A DNA stretch of 64,000 nucleotides from Subtercola sp. Z020. Its GTDB lineage: Bacteria > Actinomycetota > Actinomycetes > Actinomycetales > Microbacteriaceae. Position numbers and translations under genes: made by a program. Shown here piece after piece: positions 34,723 to 64,000 of the stretch. Location: positions 1-64,000 of the forward strand of contig NZ_PSTT01000109.1 of NCBI RefSeq assembly GCF_002931235.1, read 5' to 3'. The notes under the pieces were generated by a model. The model did no database searches, was not told the DNA's origin, and was given only the letters and a program-made list of their open reading frames with translations. Positions within the stretch are counted from its first letter, which is position 1, and the number at the start of each line of letters is the position of its first letter.

Positions 34723-38595
<3,873 letters not shown>

Positions 38596-41843: not shown

Positions 41844-42851
41844 ATGAAACGAAAAATCCTCGTCATCGGCGTGCTCGCCTCGACGCTGCTGCTGGCCGGA
41901 TGCTCGGCCTTCGGCAGCTCGTCGTCGAACGCCTCGGGCCCATCCGGCGGCTCCGGCACATCCGGCGGCTCATCGGGCACCAGCGAGGTCGTGCCCGACG
42001 AGCCGGGTGCCTCCGACAGCGGTGGATCGCTCGCAGCGGGAGCGCCGGGTGCAGGCCGCGATGCCGCGCCCCTCCTCCCCGACGCGCAGGTCGTGACGAC
42101 GGGAACCATCGCGCTGCGGGCCGACGACCCGGTGGGCACAGCTGACCGGGCGGTCGCCCTCGCAACCGGGCTCGGCGGCCACGTCGACAACCGTACAGAG
42201 CAGTCGTCGGGCCAGGCCCGCGCCGATCTCGTGCTGCGCATCCCGAGTGCCAGAGTCGATGAGGCCGTCGACGGGCTGAAGACGCTGGCCACCGTCGACT
42301 CCGTGGCCATCACGGCGACTGATGTCACCGCCCAGGTCAGCGACGTGAACGCACGCATCACCGCGTTGCAGACCTCGGTGAACCGGCTACTCGACCTGAT
42401 GGCGAAGGCGAGCGACACCACCGATCTCATCGCGCTGGAATCGACCCTCTCTGAACGTCAGGCCGACCTCGACGGCCTCACCGCGCAGAAGAACGCGATC
42501 GCCGACACCGTTCAGTACTCGTCGATCACCGTGAGCATCGCCCGCACCGAGGCGGTCGCGGTCGCGACGCCGGGCGACTTCTGGAGCGGGCTCGGCACCG
42601 GCTGGAGTTCGCTCGTGACCGCCCTGTCGGCCGCACTCGTCGCGTTCGGCGTACTCGTGCCGTGGCTCGTCACGCTCGGGGTCATCGCCCTCGCGGTGCT
42701 GGCGATCATCCGGCTGGCCGCCCGCCGCCCCCGGCCGGCAGCGACAGCAGCAAGAGCGGCGACAGCGACACCGGCAGCAGCGACACCGGCAGCAACAGCA
42801 GCGCCAGCCACCGCAGCACCCGACCCGTCGCCCTCCGAAACATCCAGCTGA
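41844..42851 (+). CDS. DUF4349 lipoprotein
   Basis: A 335-residue predicted lipoprotein with a positively charged start, hydrophobic core and lipobox LLAGCS (Cys near residue 20). A Gly/Ser linker is followed by the DUF4349 domain (about residues 85-285): TTGTIALRADDPVGTADRAV, LATVDSVAITATDVTAQVSDVNARI and a coiled-coil region ending ARTE. A C-terminal membrane helix (about 255-300) leads into an Ala/Thr/Pro repeat tail. TACAGT (41832-41837) ends 6 nt before the ATG. Function unknown. Confidence 0.88.
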   Translation: MKRKILVIGVLASTLLLAGCSAFGSSSSNASGPSGGSGTSGGSSGTSEVVPDEPGASDSGGSLAAGAPGAGRDAAPLLPDAQVVTTGTIALRADDPVGTADRAVALATGLGGHVDNRTEQSSGQARADLVLRIPSARVDEAVDGLKTLATVDSVAITATDVTAQVSDVNARITALQTSVNRLLDLMAKASDTTDLIALESTLSERQADLDGLTAQKNAIADTVQYSSITVSIARTEAVAVATPGDFWSGLGTGWSSLVTALSAALVAFGVLVPWLVTLGVIALAVLAIIRLAARRPRPAATAARAATATPAAATPAATAAPATAAPDPSPSETSS

Positions 42852-43366: not shown

Positions 43367-44083
43367 ATGAGGCTCCTCTTCAGCGTGCTCCGAACGGTCG
43401 TGGCCGTGGCGATCGCCGCCGCGATCATCGGGCAGCTCATCCACTCGGCGGGGAACGCGGCGGCGGCCGACCCGGCCTCCGTCGGGTTCGTGGCCGTCAA
43501 CTTCTTCAGCTTCTTCACGATCGACTCGAACGCCGCCAGTGTCGTCGTGCTTCTCGCCGGGGTCGTGCTGGTCGCCCGTCGCGTGCACCCCGACCCGGTG
43601 CTCTTCACGACCGTGCGTGCCGCCGTGGTCACCTACATGGTCACCACCGGAATCGTCTACAACCTCCTCTTGCGGGGCATCGCTCTGCCGCAGGGCCAGA
43701 CGCTCGCCTGGTCGAACGAGATCCTGCACGTCATCGCGCCTCTCTACCTGCTTCTCGACTGGCTGTTCGCGCCCGGTCGCGTTCCGCTGGAGTGGAAGAA
43801 GCTGTGGGCGATCGTGGCCTTCCCGATCGTCTGGGTGCTGTACTCCCTGGTGCGCGGGCCCCTGGCCATCGACGCCGCGACCGGCGCACCGTGGTATCCG
43901 TACCCCTTTCTGAACCCCGCCACGTCGCCGAACGGCTACCTCTCCGTCTCGTTCTACGTCATCCTGATCGGCCTGGTCATCGTGGCCCTGGGTGCGGGCG
44001 CCATCCGGGTCAGTCGCGGCCGTGGCTCCGGCCGTGGCTCCGGCCGTGGCTCCGGCCGGCCCGAGAGACGTATAGTTAGTTAG
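43367..44083 (+). CDS. Pr6Pr family membrane protein
   Basis: A 238-residue protein with six to seven hydrophobic helices; FFSFFTIDSNAASVVVLL, VTTGIVYNLLLRG, EILHVIAPLYLLLDWLFAP and WVLYSLVRGP identify the Pr6Pr (FAR-17a/AIG1-like) family of unknown function. TAAGCT (43355-43360) ends 6 nt before the ATG at 43367. The C-terminal tail is a GRGS repeat encoded by three exact 12-bp units (44018-44053). The stop codon lies in the likely promoter of the next gene. Confidence 0.85.
   Translation: MRLLFSVLRTVVAVAIAAAIIGQLIHSAGNAAAADPASVGFVAVNFFSFFTIDSNAASVVVLLAGVVLVARRVHPDPVLFTTVRAAVVTYMVTTGIVYNLLLRGIALPQGQTLAWSNEILHVIAPLYLLLDWLFAPGRVPLEWKKLWAIVAFPIVWVLYSLVRGPLAIDAATGAPWYPYPFLNPATSPNGYLSVSFYVILIGLVIVALGAGAIRVSRGRGSGRGSGRGSGRPERRIVS
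44018..44053 (+). repeat. 12-bp exact triplicate in the Pr6Pr gene tail
   Basis: Three identical units GGCCGTGGCTCC encode GRGS x3 at the cytoplasmic C-terminus of the membrane protein. Confidence 0.9.
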
Positions 44084-47074: not shown

Positions 47075-47097
47075 CCCGTCTTCCCCTTCGTCTTTCG

Positions 47098-47220
47098 TCG
47101 TGGCTGCGCTGGTCGTCGTCGGTCGTGGCTGCGCTGGTCGTCGTCTCTCGCTACGGCGCGGGGTGGGTGCGTTCCCATTGTTCGCGCTACGGCGCGGGGT
47201 GGGTGCGTTCCCACTGTTCG
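47098..47220. repeat. Tandem duplications downstream of the nagZ-like gene
   Basis: Two near-exact 25-bp units (47098-47122, 47123-47147) are followed by two 36-bp units (47149-47184, 47185-47220) that differ at one base. The second 36-bp unit contains the last codons and stop of the GH3 gene; the first is a downstream copy of that gene end. Confidence 0.9.
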
Positions 47221-48533
47221 CGCTGCAGCGTGAGCACCCGCACGACCGACCGGTCGAGCTGGGCCTCGCTGATCTGCCCCGACTGCACGGCAGCCGCGAT
47301 GGCGGCGACCGACGGCGCCATGTCTATCGCACTGTTGTACAACAGAATGTCGTTGCCCGCCGACACCGCCCGCACCGCGTTCGCCGAGCGGTCGGCGTAG
47401 TCGGGCAGGCCCGACGCCTCGAGCATCAGCATGTCGTCGGTGACGGCCACCCCGGTGAAGCCCAGATCGTTCCGCAGAATGTCGTGCCAGCGGGGCGAGA
47501 GCGAGGCCGGCGCGGAGTCGACCCCGGAGTAGACCAGATGACCGAACATCACGAGCGGGGCACCGGCGTCGACGCCTGCGGCGAACGACGGCGCGTCTCG
47601 CACCTGCCACTGGTCGAACGGCAGGTCGGTGGTCGGGATGCTCGTGTGCGAGTCGGCGTTCGTCTCGCCGTGACCCGGGAAGTGCTTAAGCGTACTGAAC
47701 ACCGAACCGTTCTCGGCGGTGACGGATGCCGCGACCCGGGCGGATGCCGACGCCGCGTCGGTGCCGAGCACCCGGTCGAAGATGAACGAGCCCGGGTCTG
47801 CGGTGACATCGGCGACCGTTCCGAAGTTGACCGAGACGCCGGCCGACTGCAGTAGAGCGGCACGCTGGGTGAACGATGCGGTCGTCTCGTCGACGGGCAT
47901 CGATTTCAGCCGGTCGGCGCCGGGGAACGTGTCTTCGGAGAGGCGCGTGACGTCTCCGCCCTCTTCGTCGATGGAGATGAGTGGTGTGAGCCCGGGTGTC
48001 GACGTGACGCCGGCGAGCTGCACCCGCAGGGCATCCGCAGAGGCCGGAACATTGTTGCCGAGCAGCAGGAACCCTCCGGGGCGATGAGCGGCCAGGTACT
48101 GCTCCATCGGCGCCGGATCGGTGCCCGGCACCTGCACCATGAACAGGGTCGCGATCTTGTCGCTCAGCGAGAGGGACTGCATGCGTGTCGCGGCATATAC
48201 CGTGTCGAGCTCCGCAGGGGTCGCGGGCACGAAGGCCGGGGCAGCGCCCGCGGGGCCGGCCGAGGCGGTAGAGCCGGCGGTCGGAGCGGCACCGGCGGTC
48301 GGAGCAGCACGGGCAGTCGGAGCAGAACTGGCGGTCGGAGCGGCACTCGCAGACGCAACAGCGGCGGCCGACGCAACAGCACTGCCCGCGACCTGAGAGT
48401 CAGCCCCAGGGCCTCCGCCCGTCGAACACGCACCGAGCATCCCGACCCCGAGAACCGCGACACCGGCAGCGAAAACACTCCTCCGCACACCGCGCCGCAG
48501 CACACCGCGCCGCGGCAGCCCCCGCCGGATCAC
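47187..48533 (-). CDS. Glycoside hydrolase family 3 lipoprotein (beta-N-acetylglucosaminidase NagZ-like)
   Basis: Predicted to remove GlcNAc from muropeptides at the cell surface. The 448-residue protein has an Arg-rich signal start, hydrophobic core and lipobox LGACS near residue 35, then an Ala/Thr/Pro linker (about 45-100) encoded by 18-bp-like repeats. The GH3 domain has IDEEGGDVTRL, the catalytic-loop motif KHFPGHG with His, LVMFGHLVYSG and TDDMLMLEA with the nucleophile Asp. The ATG overlaps the stop of the carbonic anhydrase gene. Confidence 0.88.
   Translation of the reverse strand: MIRRGLPRRGVLRRGVRRSVFAAGVAVLGVGMLGACSTGGGPGADSQVAGSAVASAAAVASASAAPTASSAPTARAAPTAGAAPTAGSTASAGPAGAAPAFVPATPAELDTVYAATRMQSLSLSDKIATLFMVQVPGTDPAPMEQYLAAHRPGGFLLLGNNVPASADALRVQLAGVTSTPGLTPLISIDEEGGDVTRLSEDTFPGADRLKSMPVDETTASFTQRAALLQSAGVSVNFGTVADVTADPGSFIFDRVLGTDAASASARVAASVTAENGSVFSTLKHFPGHGETNADSHTSIPTTDLPFDQWQVRDAPSFAAGVDAGAPLVMFGHLVYSGVDSAPASLSPRWHDILRNDLGFTGVAVTDDMLMLEASGLPDYADRSANAVRAVSAGNDILLYNSAIDMAPSVAAIAAAVQSGQISEAQLDRSVVRVLTLQREQWERTHPAP
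48241..48400 (-). repeat. Ala/Thr/Pro-coding repeat in the GH3 lipoprotein linker
   Basis: Imperfect 18-bp units around GCGGTCGGAGCGGCACCG on the plus strand encode APTA(S/R/G)-type repeats in the extracytoplasmic linker. Unit boundaries are approximate. Confidence 0.65.
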
Positions 48534-53001: not shown

Positions 53002-55558
53002 GCAGCGACAGCGGCACGAAGAGCGCCCGACGGTCGTCGGCCGTGCTCGCCTGGGCGCTGATCGCGTGGATGATCGACCGAACGTCGGCGACGAGGGCCC
53101 TCCGGCGTTCCGCCTCTGCCGATCCAGCCGCTGCCGACCCACCCGCAGCCGATCCAGCCGCTGCCGCCGCGACCGGGGCCGCCCCCAGATCCGGCGCGAA
53201 CTGCTCCCGCTCGACCGCACGCAGCAGCCGATCGACCGGCTCCGCGGGCATGTGGTAGAGCGCTCCGAGGCGGGCTGCGAACCCGCGCGCCGTCTCGCCC
53301 GGCCGGAGCTCGAACCGGTAGTCCCGCGCCGAGTCGGCGACCTCCCGCCAGCCCGTCGAGGCGGGCATCCGGCCGACCAGCATCGCTGCCAGCCGGCGCC
53401 GGCGACGGATTCGCCGCCACAGGGCGGGGGCGATGCCGGCCAGGGCGAGCAGCACCACGACTCCGGCGATGATCAGCCAGAGGCGGCCCTGCTCGGCGGC
53501 CTGCACCTGCGGGCTCTGCGTCACGGCTCCGCTGTCGAGGTTCGGCGCGGCCCGCGGCGTGGTCGGAGCGGCCGACGAGCCGGCGCTGTCGCGGAGCGGC
53601 GTCGCCGCGGCCGCACTCTCGTAGTTCGGCAACGTGTAGTCGGGCGGCGTCAGACCGAGGCCCGGCGTCGGCTCGAAGGCGAGCCAGCCGATGCCGTCGA
53701 ACCAGAGCTCGGGCCAGGCGTGCAGCTGGTCGCTGTAGACCTGGAACGTGGTCTGGCCCTCATCGGCGATCGAACCCGACCCGCCCGGGTGGTAGCCGAT
53801 CGCCACCCGCGAGGGGATGCCGAGCGTTCGGGCCATGACCGCCATCGCCGAGGCGAAGTGGATGCAGTACCCGCTCTTCGCCGACAGGAACGTGGCGACC
53901 GCAGCGAAGTTGCCGCCGTCGTAGTGCCCCTCCACCGGCGCGGTCACCGAATACTCGAACTGCCCGCCCGTGAAGTACCCCTGCAGGGCGACAGCCTTGT
54001 CGTAGGCGTTCGCCTCACCTCCAGTGATCTGCTGGGCGGTGTTGCGGATGATCGGCGAGATGCCGCGCGGCAGGGCGAGGTAGCCCTGCAGCGCCGCCGG
54101 AACGCTCGCTCCGGCGTCGGCGAGTTGCGCCGCCGTCGGCTGAACGGCCAGGCTCGTCACCGAGTAGTCCTGCCCGGTGGTGTTCGTGTCGACGCCGGTC
54201 ACCGTGAGGCTGCCGGGGCTGACGGTCCAGTCGCCCTGCAGCCCTGAGACGGCGGACTCGGGGTAGGGCACGGGCAGCCAGTCGCTCCGCAACCCGGTCA
54301 CCTGCACGTCGGTGGTGACCGGCTGGGTGGCCACGTCGGCCGCGAGCCCGTCGGGCGTGTCGAAGCCCGTGTCGAGCGGCAGCGCGCCGTCGAGACCCTC
54401 CGGCTGCCAGGGACCGTTCGTGAAGTCCGAGAGGTTGACGAGCTTCAGGTAGAGCCCGGTCGGGGAGGTGGTCGTGTAGGTCAGCGAGAGGATCGGGTTG
54501 GTGCGCCGCAGATCCTGGCTCAGCTGGATCGACGGGTCGATGCCGCTGGAGTAGATCGACGGCAGCTGCGCCGAGAGCGGGGCGCGGAACGACTCCGGGG
54601 TGAGGCCCGGCGTCACACCGGGCAGGAAGCAGGCGAGCAGAATCGCGAGGCCCGCCGAGAGCAGGGCGCGCCCTCCGTTCCGGCCCGAACGGATGCCGGT
54701 CGACTCCCTGAGCCGCAACCCGACACCGGCGCGGGCCGCTGCGAAGAGCAACAGCAGGTAGGTCGCCGCGAGAACGCCGAACAGCACGAGGTCGAAGCTC
54801 TGCTGCCGCACGGTGTAGGGCACGGTGAGAATCGCGGCGGGAACGAGACCGACGAGCGCGGGCATCCGCAGCCCGAAGACCAGCGCGTCGGCGAGCACGG
54901 CGAGCAACCCCACCGTGAGGGCGAGGAGCAGCAGGATCGGTTGCACGGGGTCGGCGGGCACGCTCTGAACGGCGATCGACTCCCCCGCATCCGCGAGGCC
55001 CTGGCGGATGGTGTCGAGCGTACCGACGGTCGGCACCAGCCCGAACACCGCGTCGCCGGGGGCGAACAGCGCCGTCACCGCGCCGGCCCAGGCCAGCAGG
55101 GCAGCGATCGGCGGAACGAAGATCGGCACGGGCAGCAGACGCACGAGCAGGGCTGCGCCGAGCGTGAAGCCGACGACGAGAGCGGTGCTCCACCACCAGC
55201 CCGACCCCGAGAGCAGCGGAGCAAGACCGCCGACCGGCAGCATGATCAGCAGGAAGACCAGCGGTGAGAGCGCGGCCTGCGCGAGGCGCCGCGGTTCGGT
55301 GGGGCGGGCGGCGTCACGAGTCGACTCACGGGCTGCGTCACGGTTCACGGCGCGTGACGTCGAGGTGCCGGCCGAACCGCCGAACACGCCGTCGAACACC
55401 CCGTCGAACGACCCAGGGGCCTCGTCGCCGGCCGAGCGGGATGCCCGGGGCCAGCCGGTGCCGTCACCGGCGCCCGGCCGCAACCGGCCCGGGGCGCCGG
55501 GGCGTGCAGTCCGGGCGGTGCGCCGCGGGGATCGGGGGGCCTGCCTGGTGCCGGTCAC
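52982..55558 (-). CDS. TgpA-type membrane transglutaminase-like protein
   Basis: An 858-residue membrane protein. A basic, disordered head is followed by about six to seven helices (about 100-310), an extracytoplasmic TgpA region, and a transglutaminase core with catalytic Cys in SGYCIHFASAMAVMARTLGI near residue 563 and His in HAWPELWFDGIGWLAFEPTPG near 613. One more helix (about 690-715) leads to a cytoplasmic DUF4129-like tail with a Gly/Ala/Ser repeat. The GTG start overlaps the DUF58 stop. Third gene of the moxR-DUF58-tgpA operon; role in the envelope is likely but unproven. Confidence 0.92.
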   Translation of the reverse strand: MTGTRQAPRSPRRTARTARPGAPGRLRPGAGDGTGWPRASRSAGDEAPGSFDGVFDGVFGGSAGTSTSRAVNRDAARESTRDAARPTEPRRLAQAALSPLVFLLIMLPVGGLAPLLSGSGWWWSTALVVGFTLGAALLVRLLPVPIFVPPIAALLAWAGAVTALFAPGDAVFGLVPTVGTLDTIRQGLADAGESIAVQSVPADPVQPILLLLALTVGLLAVLADALVFGLRMPALVGLVPAAILTVPYTVRQQSFDLVLFGVLAATYLLLLFAAARAGVGLRLRESTGIRSGRNGGRALLSAGLAILLACFLPGVTPGLTPESFRAPLSAQLPSIYSSGIDPSIQLSQDLRRTNPILSLTYTTTSPTGLYLKLVNLSDFTNGPWQPEGLDGALPLDTGFDTPDGLAADVATQPVTTDVQVTGLRSDWLPVPYPESAVSGLQGDWTVSPGSLTVTGVDTNTTGQDYSVTSLAVQPTAAQLADAGASVPAALQGYLALPRGISPIIRNTAQQITGGEANAYDKAVALQGYFTGGQFEYSVTAPVEGHYDGGNFAAVATFLSAKSGYCIHFASAMAVMARTLGIPSRVAIGYHPGGSGSIADEGQTTFQVYSDQLHAWPELWFDGIGWLAFEPTPGLGLTPPDYTLPNYESAAAATPLRDSAGSSAAPTTPRAAPNLDSGAVTQSPQVQAAEQGRLWLIIAGVVVLLALAGIAPALWRRIRRRRRLAAMLVGRMPASTGWREVADSARDYRFELRPGETARGFAARLGALYHMPAEPVDRLLRAVEREQFAPDLGAAPVAAAAAGSAAGGSAAAGSAEAERRRALVADVRSIIHAISAQASTADDRRALFVPLSLLSRSAR

Positions 55559-58953: not shown

Positions 58954-59568
58954 CTACCGCTGCGGGAGGCGGTGCAGCGTGACGTCGGTGAGGGCGCCCG
59001 CGGCGGCGTGGGCGGTGAGGTAGGTGCAGTGCGGCTGGCGGCGGCGGTCGGTGGGCGAGCCGGGGTTCAGCAGGCGGAGACCGGCGGGGGTGGTGGTGTC
59101 CCACGGGATGTGGCTGTGCCCGAAGACGAGCACGTCGGCGCCAGTCGCAACAGCAGCGCCAGCCGCGCCAGCAGCGCCCGGCGCGACAGCAGCGCCCACC
59201 GCGCCAGCAACACCAACAGCGCCGGGCGCGACAGCGCCCCTCGGGAAGGCCAGGTCGGCGCGCCGCTCGCGACCGGCGGCGGAGCCGGTCTCGTGGGTCA
59301 TCGCGAAACGGAGGCCCGCGACATCCACCCGCGCCACCTCCGGCAGCACGGCGCGGAGCTCCGGCGGGTCGTTGTTGCCCCAGACGCCGACGAGCTCACC
59401 GCCCGACGCCTCGACGCGGGCCGCGAGACGCTCGTAGGTGGCCAGGTCGACCCAGTCGCCCGCGTGGAACACCACGTCTGCGGCATCCACCGCCGACCAG
59501 AGCTCGGCGGGCAGGTCGCGCGCCCGTTTCGGCAGATGCGTGTCGGAGATCAGCAGGATTCGCGCCAT
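58954..59568 (-). CDS. Metallophosphoesterase (YfcE/MJ0936-like)
   Basis: A 204-residue calcineurin-like phosphodiesterase: [12 protein letters not shown] near residue 5, [25 protein letters not shown] and the terminal [11 protein letters not shown] and [12 protein letters not shown], together supplying the two-metal site. Between THE and GHSHIP lies an unusual 35-residue Gly/Ala/Val/Pro insertion (59136-59240) not expected in the compact family fold. TATCGT (59575-59580) ends 6 nt before the ATG. Divergent from sdaA; substrate unknown. Confidence 0.87.
59136..59240 (-). repeat. Gly/Ala/Pro-coding repetitive insertion in the metallophosphoesterase
   Basis: Imperfect GC-rich units of 9-15 bp (for example GCGCCCGGCGCGACAGC twice) encode GAVAPGAVG- and GAAGAAG-like stretches. 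They are in frame and located before the conserved GHSHIP motif. Confidence 0.7.
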
Positions 59569-61272: not shown

Positions 61273-61611
61273 GTGGGCTTACTGCTCTACGGAAATCCGA
61301 GTATCGAGGTCAGCTTCGACGACCGGGCGCTGCAACACCTGCAGATCGTGATCACCGCGAAGCTGCGGCGCCGTGAGAGCTTCGTGTTCTCGTGGAACGA
61401 CTCCGCCGACGTCGGCAGCGGCCGGAGCTCGATCTGGCTCGACCCCTCCAGCACGCTCTACTACCGCTACTTCGGCAGCCGCGTGCCGGCCATCAACCGG
61501 GCGTGGATCGACCTGCTCATGGACTCGGCGAACAGCGGAAGCGGCCTCTTCTTCCTGCCCGAGCCCGGCACTGTGGCGCACAGTCCTTCGCTGTCTTCGT
61601 CGCGGGGGTGA
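61273..61611 (+). CDS. DUF7882 family protein
   Basis: A 112-residue single-domain protein: MGLLLYGNPSIEVSFDDRAL, KLRRRESFVFSWND, GSGRSSIWLDPSSTLYYRYFGS, INRAWIDLLMDSANSGSGL. Proteins like this are widespread in Microbacteriaceae and are sometimes labelled ATP-dependent DNA ligase, but no ligase motif is present; the label is not supported. The start is probably coupled to the small acidic gene just upstream. Function unknown. Confidence 0.8.
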   Translation: MGLLLYGNPSIEVSFDDRALQHLQIVITAKLRRRESFVFSWNDSADVGSGRSSIWLDPSSTLYYRYFGSRVPAINRAWIDLLMDSANSGSGLFFLPEPGTVAHSPSLSSSRG

Positions 61612-61654
61612 GCCGGCGTGCAGGAATGCAGCGTGCGCGGCGTAGTGTGCCGGA

Positions 61655-62608
61655 ATGCAGCGTGCAGCGCCTCAGCCCGGTGAGACGGTGCTGACCCGGC
61701 TGCGCTTCGAGGTCATCCCGGGCGACGAGAACCACGCTTCCCCCACCGGCGCTTCGCTGGCCGACCGCCTGCTGCGCGCCTTCCCCGCGCCCACCGGGGT
61801 CACCCTGACGGTCACGTCGCTGCCGCAGCATGGCGTGGAACGCACCCTGCGCTCGGCCGTCGAGCTGGCGGGGCTCGGGTTCCGGGTCGTGCCGCACCTT
61901 CCGGCCCGCGGCATCGCCGACCGTGCGGCGCTCGAAGATATGGTGCGCCGGATGCTCGGGGCCGGCATCACCGAGGTGTTCACGGTCTCGGGCGACGCCG
62001 CACCGGGTTCCGGGGGCGGCACGGGTGCGTACAGCACGAGTCTCGAGCTGATCCGCGACCTCGCCGACATCGCTCCGGAGCTCTCGATCGGCATCGCCGG
62101 CTACCCGGAGGGCCACCCGCACTTCAGCGACGACCACCTCCTGCAGCACCTGCGGGAACGCGCGCCGTACATCGACACCATCGTGACGCAGCTCTGTTAT
62201 TCGCCGCAGGCGGTGGCTCGCTACGCCGCGATGCTGCGGCGGATCGGGGTGGAGGCGGAGCTCTGGGTGGGCGTACCCGGCCCGATCGGCCTCGCGCGCC
62301 TCGAGACGCTCAGCGACCGGCTCGGCGTGGGCCGGTCGAAGGAGCTGCTCGGGCGCACCGGGGCTGACGGTGCCGGTTTCGACGCTGCTGGTTTCGACGG
62401 TGCCGGTTTCGACGGTGCCGGTTTCGATGCCGCCCGGTTCGACGCCGCCCGGTTCGATGCTGCGGGTTTCCTTCGCGCTGTCGAGGCGCAACCGGAGCTC
62501 GCGGATGCCGACGCGCGCGACCACCTCGCCGGAGCCCACGTGTACACCTTCAACGAGATCGAGGGACTCCCCGCGTTCGTCGAGGCTGTTACCGTGAACC
62601 ATGCCTGA
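61655..62608 (+). CDS. Methylenetetrahydrofolate reductase-like protein
   Basis: A 317-residue protein of the MTHFR/FAD-dependent TIM-barrel family: VTLTVTSLPQHGVERTLRSA, VVPHLPARGIADRAALEDMV, ITEVFTVSGDAAPGSGG, IGIAGYPEGHPHF, IDTIVTQLCYSPQAVARYAAML and VHTFNEI-like HVYTFNEIEG. It is shorter than canonical MetF and may be a divergent paralogue. A pentapeptide repeat AGFD(A/G)/ARFDA at residues about 240-272 is encoded by a 15-bp minisatellite. TAGTGT (61643-61648) ends 6 nt before the ATG. Confidence 0.78.
   Translation: MQRAAPQPGETVLTRLRFEVIPGDENHASPTGASLADRLLRAFPAPTGVTLTVTSLPQHGVERTLRSAVELAGLGFRVVPHLPARGIADRAALEDMVRRMLGAGITEVFTVSGDAAPGSGGGTGAYSTSLELIRDLADIAPELSIGIAGYPEGHPHFSDDHLLQHLRERAPYIDTIVTQLCYSPQAVARYAAMLRRIGVEAELWVGVPGPIGLARLETLSDRLGVGRSKELLGRTGADGAGFDAAGFDGAGFDGAGFDAARFDAARFDAAGFLRAVEAQPELADADARDHLAGAHVYTFNEIEGLPAFVEAVTVNHA
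62372..62470 (+). repeat. 15-bp minisatellite in the MTHFR-like gene (6.6 units)
   Basis: Six units of about GCCGGTTTCGACGCT plus a 9-nt partial encode AGFDA, AGFDG, AGFDG, AGFDA, ARFDA, ARFDA, AGF. Copies differ by only a few bases. The pattern A-x-F-D-x resembles a pentapeptide repeat but is probably too short to form the usual helix. Confidence 0.9.
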
Positions 62609-63683
62609 CCCGATGCAGCCCGACGCCACCCAGCCCGAGCCCACCCAGCCCGAGCCCACTCAGCCCGAGCCCACCTCTCCAGAGTCCTCGACGACAGGCG
62701 GCTCGGGGCAGGCTCAGCTGGCCGAGCAGCCCCTGATCGGTGTGATCGGCGGATCCGGGCTCTACCGGCTCTTCGCCGACGAGGCCAGCAGCCCGAACAC
62801 AGTGGTCAGCCTGACCGTTCCCACTCCGTTCGGAGCCACCTCCAGCCCGATCACCGTCGGCAGCATCGGCGGTCGCACCGTGGCGTTCCTCACCCGGCAT
62901 GGGGCCGACCACTCCGTCGCACCGCACCTCATCAACTACCGCGCCAACATCTGGGCCCTCAAGTCGCTCGGCGTTCGCGCCATCATCTCCTCGGCGGCGG
63001 TCGGCGGGGTGAGCCCCGACGTTCCCCCCGGAACGCTCGTACTGACCGACCAGTTCATCGACCGCACCTGGGGCCGACCCGACACCTTCTTCGACCGCGG
63101 CAGCGTGCAGCACCTCGCCGCCGCCGACCCGTTCTGCCCGAGCCTCCACAGCCTCGCCGCGAACGCGCTCACCCGCGCGGGAGAGGTCTTCTCCTCCACA
63201 GGCACGGTCGTCGTGATCCAGGGCCCGCGGTTCTCCACGCGAGCCGAGTCGCAGTGGTTCCGCGCCGCGGGCGCCCACACCGTCAACATGACGCTCGTGC
63301 CCGAGGTCACCCTCGCCGCCGAACTGAACATCGGCACTGTCAACCTCAGCTTCGTCACCGACGCCGACGCCGGGCTGGCGGCCCCCGCCTCCGCCGGTGA
63401 CAGCCCGGCAGACCCGGCTGCGGCGCCGACCGCTGCCGCGGCGGTCGATGCGGCGGCGCCCACCTCCCCCGCAGGCGAAGACGCGGTCAGCGCCGAGCTG
63501 GTGTTCCGCCGCCTGCGTGAGGCGCAGCCGCGCATCATCAGGGCCATCGAGCAGATCGTTCGCGCCATCCCGCTCGACTACGAGCCCCGCGAACTCATCC
63601 CCGCCGGAGAGGTGCAGCGCGTGCTCGAGTACCCCCTGCCCGCGCAGCCCTCCGGAAACGTGGCGGCCGACGATGCCCTCTGA
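62601..63683 (+). CDS. S-methyl-5'-thioadenosine/purine nucleoside phosphorylase
   Basis: Phosphorolyses MTA or purine nucleosides, linking to methionine salvage. The 360-residue protein has a PEP/QPEPT repeat head (residues 6-25) and a Thr/Ser/Gly linker, then the core with IGVIGGSGLYRL near 48, RHGADHSVAPHLINYRANIWALKSLGV, SSAAVGGVSPDVPPG, GPRFSTRAESQWFRAAGAHTVNMTLVPEVTLA and the Asp loop FVTDADAG. An Ala/Pro stretch (about 260-290) interrupts the C-terminal part. TACCGT lies 5 nt before the ATG. The stop overlaps the next gene. Confidence 0.88.
   Translation: MPDPMQPDATQPEPTQPEPTQPEPTSPESSTTGGSGQAQLAEQPLIGVIGGSGLYRLFADEASSPNTVVSLTVPTPFGATSSPITVGSIGGRTVAFLTRHGADHSVAPHLINYRANIWALKSLGVRAIISSAAVGGVSPDVPPGTLVLTDQFIDRTWGRPDTFFDRGSVQHLAAADPFCPSLHSLAANALTRAGEVFSSTGTVVVIQGPRFSTRAESQWFRAAGAHTVNMTLVPEVTLAAELNIGTVNLSFVTDADAGLAAPASAGDSPADPAAAPTAAAAVDAAAPTSPAGEDAVSAELVFRRLREAQPRIIRAIEQIVRAIPLDYEPRELIPAGEVQRVLEYPLPAQPSGNVAADDAL
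62616..62675 (+). repeat. 15-bp minisatellite in the nucleoside phosphorylase N-terminus (4 units)
   Basis: Four units of about CAGCCCGAGCCCACC encode QPDAT, QPEPT, QPEPT and QPEPT directly after the first five codons. Units are nearly identical. Confidence 0.9.
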
Positions 63684-64000
63684 CCCCACTCGCCCCGGCG
63701 CCGCAACCCCGCCCGCCGCAACCACGCCCAGCGCAACCACGCCAGCCGCAACCACGCCCAGCGCAACCACGCCAGCCGCAACCACGCCCAGCGAAGCCCC
63801 CGGCCTCCTGCTGGTCACCGGCGGCGCGGGATTCATCGGCTCGGCCATCGTCACCGCCGCCCTCGACCAGGGCTGGCGCGTGCGCGTGCTCGATTCCCTG
63901 CGCGCCGACGTGCACGCGACGACTTCTGCCGCCGACGGCATCCCCGCTCCCACCCCGGGCGCCGGCACCGCCGCCCGCCCCGCCACCGCGGCCGGCACCA
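63673..64000 (+). CDS. NAD-dependent epimerase/dehydratase (partial, runs off the window)
   Basis: The first 109 codons of an extended SDR. After a Thr/Pro/Ala-rich head of about 43 residues comes LLLVTGGAGFIGSAIVTAAL with the NAD-binding GxxGxxG, then VRVLDSLRADVH. A further Ala/Pro/Gly low-complexity stretch begins near residue 88. The ATG at 63673 overlaps the phosphorylase stop by 11 nt. The catalytic YxxxK lies beyond the window. Function (sugar-nucleotide or other substrate) cannot be given. Confidence 0.75.
   Translation, partial: MPSDPTRPGAATPPAATTPSATTPAATTPSATTPAATTPSEAPGLLLVTGGAGFIGSAIVTAALDQGWRVRVLDSLRADVHATTSAADGIPAPTPGAGTAARPATAAGT
63718..63792 (+). repeat. 15-bp minisatellite in the epimerase N-terminus (5 units)
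   Basis: Alternating units GCAACCACGCCCAGC and GCAACCACGCCAGCC, three and two copies, encode ATTPS and ATTPA. They precede the conserved NAD-binding domain and keep the frame. Confidence 0.9.

Follow-up and report, generated by a model that had tools for sequence, protein, structure and literature searches.

The question raised by one end of a 64,000-bp stretch of Subtercola sp. Z020 DNA is why three consecutive genes should each contain a tandem array with a 15-bp unit. This stretch, the window of the analysis, comprises most of a 65,114-bp contig (NZ_PSTT01000109.1) of a 3.53-Mb draft genome that consists of 166 contigs and is 98.7% complete. The three genes lie on the forward strand and encode an MTHFR-like protein of 317 residues (61655–62608), an MTAP-like nucleoside phosphorylase of 360 residues (62601–63683), and an NAD-dependent epimerase/dehydratase of 462 residues (63673–65058 of the contig, with 63673–64000 in the window). 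The arrays are best explained as independent, lineage-specific, in-frame minisatellites of the slippage type that persist at disordered sites of the protein, provided that the frame is kept. A probability of approximately 0.85 is assigned to this reading. The position and frame of the arrays, their absence from the relatives searched, the other arrays at the same sites, and the period spectrum of the sample were all observed directly.

Tandem Repeats Finder (TRF) and the gene positions place one in-frame 15-bp array in each of the three neighboring genes, as an earlier note on this DNA had claimed. Array 1 (62366–62470, plus strand) contains 7.0 copies of a 15-bp unit with 83% matches and a score of 119, and it encodes (D[AG]A[GR]F)n at approximately residues 238–272 of the MTHFR-like protein. 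The peptides are DGAGF, DAAGF, and DAARF, and the pattern D-x-A-x-F is kept in all seven units. Units 1, 3, and 4 are identical, and the array is composed of two unit sub-types that are 4–5 bases apart. Array 2 (62616–62675, plus strand) contains 4.0 copies of 15 bp with 91% matches and a score of 99. It encodes (QPEPT)n at residues 6–25 of the MTAP-like protein, and units 2–4 differ by 0–1 bases. Array 3 (63702–63791, plus strand) is found in the epimerase gene and consists of six 15-bp units that form three 30-bp dimers encoding (ATTPS-ATTPA)n. It is reported by TRF with a period of 15 at 63699–63789 (6.1 copies, 82% matches, score 133) and with a 30-bp unit at 63702–63793 (3.1 copies, 96% matches). 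The first dimer has 2 mismatches and the other two are identical; the ATTPS units are identical to one another, as are two ATTPA units. The coordinates given previously were correct for array 2 and slightly short for arrays 1 and 3. The description of the units as nearly identical applies to array 2 and to the 30-bp dimers of array 3, and it does not extend to the two sub-types of array 1.

Arrays 1–3 all preserve the reading frame, with a unit that is a multiple of three and at least three copies inside the open reading frame (ORF). A weak fourth array (63419–63458, plus strand, 15 bp × 2.7, score 45, 76% matches), overlooked in the earlier note, encodes part of an inner loop in the MTAP-like protein. 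Its 2.7 copies fall short of the three copies required of an in-frame intragenic minisatellite. The consensus units of the three arrays are as unlike as random 15-mers, with longest shared stretches of 4, 4, and 6 bases, in accord with the earlier description of the repeats as unrelated. A common origin of the three arrays was rejected because the consensus units share just 4–6 bases and each dimer is unique to its own place.

The proposed location in linkers or termini is likewise upheld. Array 2 is found in the N-terminal tail of the MTAP-like protein, ahead of the first strand, and array 3 is found in the N-terminal tail of the epimerase, ahead of the Rossmann strand. In the AlphaFold model of the MTAP-like protein (29 sequences), the predicted local distance difference test (pLDDT) values are 46–53 for residues 1–40, 42–49 for residues 261–290, and 68–98 for the blocks of the folded core. 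Array 2 and the weak fourth array are both located in regions that are modelled as disordered (pLDDT 42–53).

Relatives were compared using one genome per species. Some match to the MTAP-like protein is found in 33 of 40 genomes (own genome included), and orthologue-level matches are found in 6 of 11 congeners (G001, G003, G005, G008, G009, and G011). The MTAP–epimerase gene order is kept in these six congeners, in G015, and at 42 of 43 other loci of the family; the remaining one, L053, is cut off by the end of its contig at the MTAP gene. When the own genome and the six congeners were searched for a dimer of each window array with up to 3 mismatches, each dimer was detected at its own place and nowhere else (0 of 6 congeners). 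Array 1 is an insertion: the eight MTHFR-like homologues aligned with it, chosen as the best among 18 non-own matches, all lack it and show a 19-column gap. The last FDAAGF of array 1 is matched in the alignment by FDPAPF in G003, the closest homologue, which suggests that a local stretch of the FDxAxF type was the seed of the array.

Strong arrays (TRF score of at least 60 and at least three copies) of other units are present in the MTAP–epimerase pair of 5 of the 6 congeners, in tails and loops, and at 9 of 42 other family loci. The pairs of G008 (S. boreus) and of G015 contain no strong array. In the N-terminal tail of the MTAP-like protein the arrays encode SDSP (12 bp × 5, G005), PVSTV (15 bp × 5.3, Marisediminicola senii), and ENDRP/DTDRP (15 bp × 3.8, a Curtobacterium). 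Inner-loop arrays encode DAGTV (15 bp, G005), AGLSPE (18 bp, a Cryobacterium), and ADETA (15 bp, a Curtobacterium), and C-terminal arrays encode AVPADG (18 bp × 4.7, G001), AATVSG (18 bp × 3.4, G003), and AVLGQ (15 bp × 3.1, G005). The epimerase carries AAGPA (15 bp × 5.6, G001) and AVDST (15 bp × 5.3, G011) in two different inner loops and an N-terminal array in G009. In G005 and G011 the next gene, which encodes a family-2 glycosyltransferase (Pfam match made for the G011 protein), also contains arrays. The glycosyltransferase genes 3′ of the epimerase at L134:9741–10652 and L137:8468–9355 have two arrays each, in tails and a loop, with different units.

The earlier note had proposed a recent expansion and had named the same arrays with the same copy number in orthologues of distant genera as the finding that would refute it. 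The congeneric orthologues lack these arrays, and 5 of the 6 pairs carry other strong ones instead. A lineage-specific expansion is supported: the array dimers appear in 0 of 6 congeners that hold the pair and the MTHFR insert appears in 0 of 8 aligned homologues. The word recent is to be taken in a relative sense, as after the split from congeners at about 65–80% protein identity, and only some of the units are identical.

The abundance of such arrays is beyond chance. In a 261.6-kb sample of the own genome, window included, 18 strong coding arrays (these three among them) are obtained with either of two gene callers. Shuffling of codons within 30-codon blocks provided a mean of 0.6 and a maximum of 2 in 20 shuffles. 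No strong array was detected in 150 kb of E. coli K-12 with the same procedure. The Subtercola sample comprised 1.46 Mb from six genomes. With this locus left out, 87 of 88 strong coding arrays have units that are multiples of three, including 34 with 15 bp and 21 with 18 bp, versus 42 of 83 strong noncoding arrays (12 with 15 bp). Among Subtercola arrays with at least 4 copies and units of at least 9 bp, 15 bp accounts for 19 of 41 in coding DNA, and 14–18 bp for 26 of 41 in noncoding DNA. For coding arrays with a score of at least 50, this locus included, the counts are 71 at 15 bp versus 10.7 in codon shuffles and 64 versus 9.4 at 18 bp. There is little excess at 21 bp (22 versus 15.4). The same shape is obtained, at about half the density, from a pool of eight other genomes belonging to the family and order.

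There is no support for the idea, implied in the earlier note, that the shared 15-bp period marks these genes out, since no other unit size occurs as often among coding arrays of the Subtercola sample. The chance that three arrays have one period in common is about 0.11 under the Subtercola spectrum, and the period was rejected on that ground as a link between the three genes. That they agree in period can be attributed to a preference for 14–18 bp at formation, followed by a frame filter.

The density of strong coding arrays per 100 kb in the larger Subtercola samples is 7.8 for the own genome, 6.9 for G001, 6.9 for G007, and 7.7 for G010. The 40-kb Subtercola samples provided values of 2.8 (G011) and 2.9 (G005). 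For the other genomes the values are 6.8 (G015), 6.6 (G018), 7.7 (G025), 4.5 (G024), 2.2 (G017), 2.2 (G035), and 0 (G012 and G014). A plain claim of unusual density in this genus is weakened by G015, G018, and G025, which reach 6.6–7.7 per 100 kb. The density in Subtercola is on the high side and is not alone. The 1.46-Mb sample would be expected to contain 0.40 sets of three strong coding arrays with starts inside 1.45 kb. Such sets are observed in the window and as two overlapping triplets in one stretch of G010; the triplet of the window prompted the analysis and cannot be counted as a test of clustering. Also in G010, the starts of four strong coding arrays fall inside 1.8 kb at L191 13702–15438.

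Within Subtercola, arrays are enriched about 4-fold in the MTAP–epimerase pair, a hotspot that does not extend to the wider family. With the arrays of the window left out, the pair contains 9 strong arrays in 15.7 kb in the six congeners and G015, versus 11 in 78.8 kb of flanking coding DNA as delimited with the first, less reliable gene caller (4.1-fold, p = 0.003). The six congener neighborhoods, pair included, hold 20 strong coding arrays in about 84 kb versus about 5.7 expected at the rate of the genus sample (Poisson p about 3e-6), and their flanks alone show an excess with p = 0.02. In G001 the MTAP-like and epimerase sequences form one open frame of 736 codons with one stop (L132:4700–6907, minus strand), joined by the 18-bp AVPADG array. 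On the evidence of this frame, G001 is predicted to contain an MTAP–epimerase gene fusion at a minisatellite.

A short stretch would initially be duplicated in tandem, probably via replication slippage or template switching, and the array would then grow by repeated copying of one unit or one dimer. Independent tandem duplication and growth are best supported as the mechanism, given the apparent growth by dimers in array 3 and the unit identity in array 1. In coding DNA, mainly those expansions with multiple-of-three units in disordered tails or surface loops would survive. Units of 14–18 bp would be favored in the genus in coding and noncoding DNA alike, and the frame filter would leave 15 and 18. 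The pair may gather arrays repeatedly in Subtercola through the several permissive tails and loops of these enzymes. We infer the copying mechanism, the neutrality of the arrays, and permissiveness as the cause of the hotspot.

Several points weigh against independent, slippage-type minisatellites as the full account. At 42 other family loci there is no significant hotspot (10 arrays in 88.1 kb versus 22 in 249.8 kb, ratio 1.29, p = 0.31), and permissive sites alone are therefore insufficient to explain the one in Subtercola. The 15-bp peak is uneven: G001 has 12 arrays of 18 bp and 7 of 15 bp, and arrays of at least 4 copies have a 15-bp unit in only 3 of 13 cases in the eight other genomes and in 3 of 8 cases at other family loci, which argues against a special role of 15 itself. 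The TRF thresholds handicap two-copy units of 12 bp or less; a two-copy 12-bp repeat cannot reach a score of 50, and the low side of the period peak therefore rests on the four-copy counts. Genes were called de novo, so that some noncoding arrays may be coding. Array residues fall in alignment columns filled in fewer than 80% of sequences for 334 of 396 residues in MTAP (51 proteins) and 178 of 196 in the epimerase (50 proteins), versus 13% and 7% of all residues, respectively; this count is partly circular, since an insertion creates its own gapped columns, and the fused G001 protein is included in both alignment sets. With one genome per species covered, ongoing instability, and with it the length variation between strains that the earlier note raised, is no more than a possibility.

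The arrays could instead have been selected for function, with the Pro/Thr/Ala-rich tails and the F-rich insert serving as tethers or interaction sites that unite consecutive enzymes of the operon. Several relatives add repeats at the same tails, the G001 proteins are joined through an 18-bp array in one ORF, and D-x-A-x-F is constant in array 1, all in favor of tethers. The units and compositions at one site differ between species, however, and in S. boreus (G008) the MTAP tail is very short and the pair lacks a strong array altogether. By eye, the listed arrays show no shared motif, and no motif search was run. Selection of the arrays as tethers is considered unlikely. Rapid change of copy number that tunes expression or activity, as at phase-variable contingency loci, is more doubtful still. 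The identical 30-bp dimers of array 3 would be good substrates for copy change, and arrays 2 and 3 are located just behind overlapping start/stop junctions. The 15-bp units inside genes keep the frame, however, and provide no on/off switch of the kind that defines phase variation. In Legionella pneumophila, 26 in-frame arrays of like kind remained unchanged over three months of passage (PMC2639597), and fast length variation cannot be assumed for that reason.

Two further alternatives concern the identity of array 1 and the assembly. Pentapeptide-repeat proteins repeat every five residues, have Ala and Phe at constant positions, and contain four units per coil, and array 1, which shares this period and these fixed residues, could be a beta-helix of this family (PF00805) grafted onto the MTHFR-like protein. 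The only Pfam match of this protein at E ≤ 0.01 is PF02219, with none to PF00805. Seven units amount to less than two coils, and the array resembles an expansion of the local FDxAxF stretch. A grafted beta-helix is highly improbable. An assembly or sequencing artefact could be suspected in a draft of 166 contigs. The arrays are 60–105 bp long, are in frame, and have diverged units, and like arrays are present in relatives whose assemblies comprise one or two contigs (G001, G007, and G010), so that an artefact has next to no likelihood.

The host genes overlap. The start of the MTAP-like gene overlaps the MTHFR-like gene by 8 bp, and the start of the epimerase gene overlaps the MTAP-like gene by 11 bp in a different frame. 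The MTHFR-like protein passes the Pfam cut-off for PF02219 (residues 32–206) with 46.7 versus 24 bits and is under that of the NCBIfam equivalog TIGR00676 (51.2 versus 293.7 bits). The MTAP-like protein passes the cut-off for PF01048 (135.4 versus 25.1 bits). Its two best NCBIfam matches are TIGR01694 and NF005876, and it is under both of these curated cut-offs for S-methyl-5′-thioadenosine phosphorylase (253 versus 274.85 and 265 versus 306 bits, respectively). The names MTAP-like and MTHFR-like are kept loose because the two proteins stay under the NCBIfam cut-offs; they do reach those of Pfam. The epimerase passes the cut-off for PF01370 (158.8 versus 20.9 bits). The MTHFR-like gene is the sole PF02219 match (E ≤ 0.001) in its own 98.7% complete draft genome. 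Its scores do not reach the NCBIfam cut-offs, and it may be a divergent enzyme and the genome's sole MTHFR, in which case array 1 would possibly be inserted in the only enzyme of that kind.

Other features were noted in the surroundings. A small DUF7882 gene (PF25355) at 61273–61611, just upstream of the MTHFR-like gene, is also matched in the G011 neighborhood, and four further congeners have genes similar in size and position. In 5 of the 6 pair-holding congeners (for example, L137:5214–6170 and L133:7480–8436), this locus includes a rhodopsin gene (PF01036 match) upstream of MTAP, and in the window its place (61612–62600) is taken by the MTHFR-like gene. Both genes are present in G003, and in G008 the rhodopsins are found elsewhere in the genome. 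A PF01036 search of the own draft genome provided no match; the same search provided at least one match in each of the six pair-holding congeners. Other strong arrays of 12, 15, or 18 bp in the window are at 37412–37474, 42745–42794, 44017–44058, 48274–48346, 53112–53166, and 59138–59209, and 5 of these 6 are within called genes. Two adjoining near-perfect repeats with unlike units are found at 47097–47224 (25 bp × 2.0 with 100% matches and 36 bp × 2.1 with 97% matches).

These results indicate that several young in-frame repeat insertions can occur next to one another in genes for metabolic enzymes, and that relatives carry different ones at the same places. Subtercola is thus a usable natural series for the origin of disordered linkers and for possible gene fusion through a repeat, and the 14–18 bp preference would offer a clue to how the units are copied, should further genomes bear it out. 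Somewhat short of even odds, we would extend the account to a mutational process in Subtercola, and probably in some other genera of the order, that makes minisatellites with a preferred unit of 14–18 bp in coding and noncoding DNA. Such a process would continually rewrite the disordered tails and loops of enzymes, with the MTAP–epimerase–glycosyltransferase operon as a recurrent hotspot in Subtercola, and could join neighboring genes as in G001.

The arrays belong to a known kind, the in-frame intragenic repeats of bacteria and archaea. What may be new is the preference of Subtercola for 14–18 bp and the joining of two genes by an array; in the open-licence literature no paper was found on either, on tandem repeats in Subtercola, or on disordered tandem repeats in Microbacteriaceae. 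In Legionella pneumophila, as in Subtercola, the arrays are in frame, and all 26 have a unit divisible by three, with seven polymorphic among strains (PMC2639597). The Legionella units range from 9 to 261 bp and many encode TPR or other structured repeats, whereas those of Subtercola cluster at 15–18 bp (PMC2639597). A census of protein tandem repeats across all life likewise found that short repeats favor termini and accompany disorder (PMC7230257); unlike the present study, its available passages are silent on the genus and on a 15-bp unit.

Satellites of prokaryotes resemble the Subtercola arrays in that long repeats are mostly multiples of three, many are genic, and the density is very uneven between species, with a top bacterial value of 23 per Mb in Table 1 of that source (PMC6749651). 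A rough, not like-for-like re-implementation of its criterion provided 17.5–30.6 per Mb for four of the Subtercola samples (34 arrays over 1.38 Mb) and no array in the two of 40 kb; of the 8 other genomes, 7 had 0–10 per Mb and G018 had 50 per Mb (5 in 100 kb). The amino acid tandem repeats (aaTRs) of archaeal Borgs are also recent and independent, with ORF units divisible by three, commonly in disordered regions (PMC9879509). They share with the Subtercola arrays a conserved hotspot region that holds mostly different repeats in each element (PMC9879509). The Borg elements themselves are linear, A-rich, and extrachromosomal, and their repeats are mostly perfect (PMC9879509), whereas the arrays of Subtercola are imperfect and are found in a GC-rich actinobacterial genome, in the tails and loops of metabolic enzymes.

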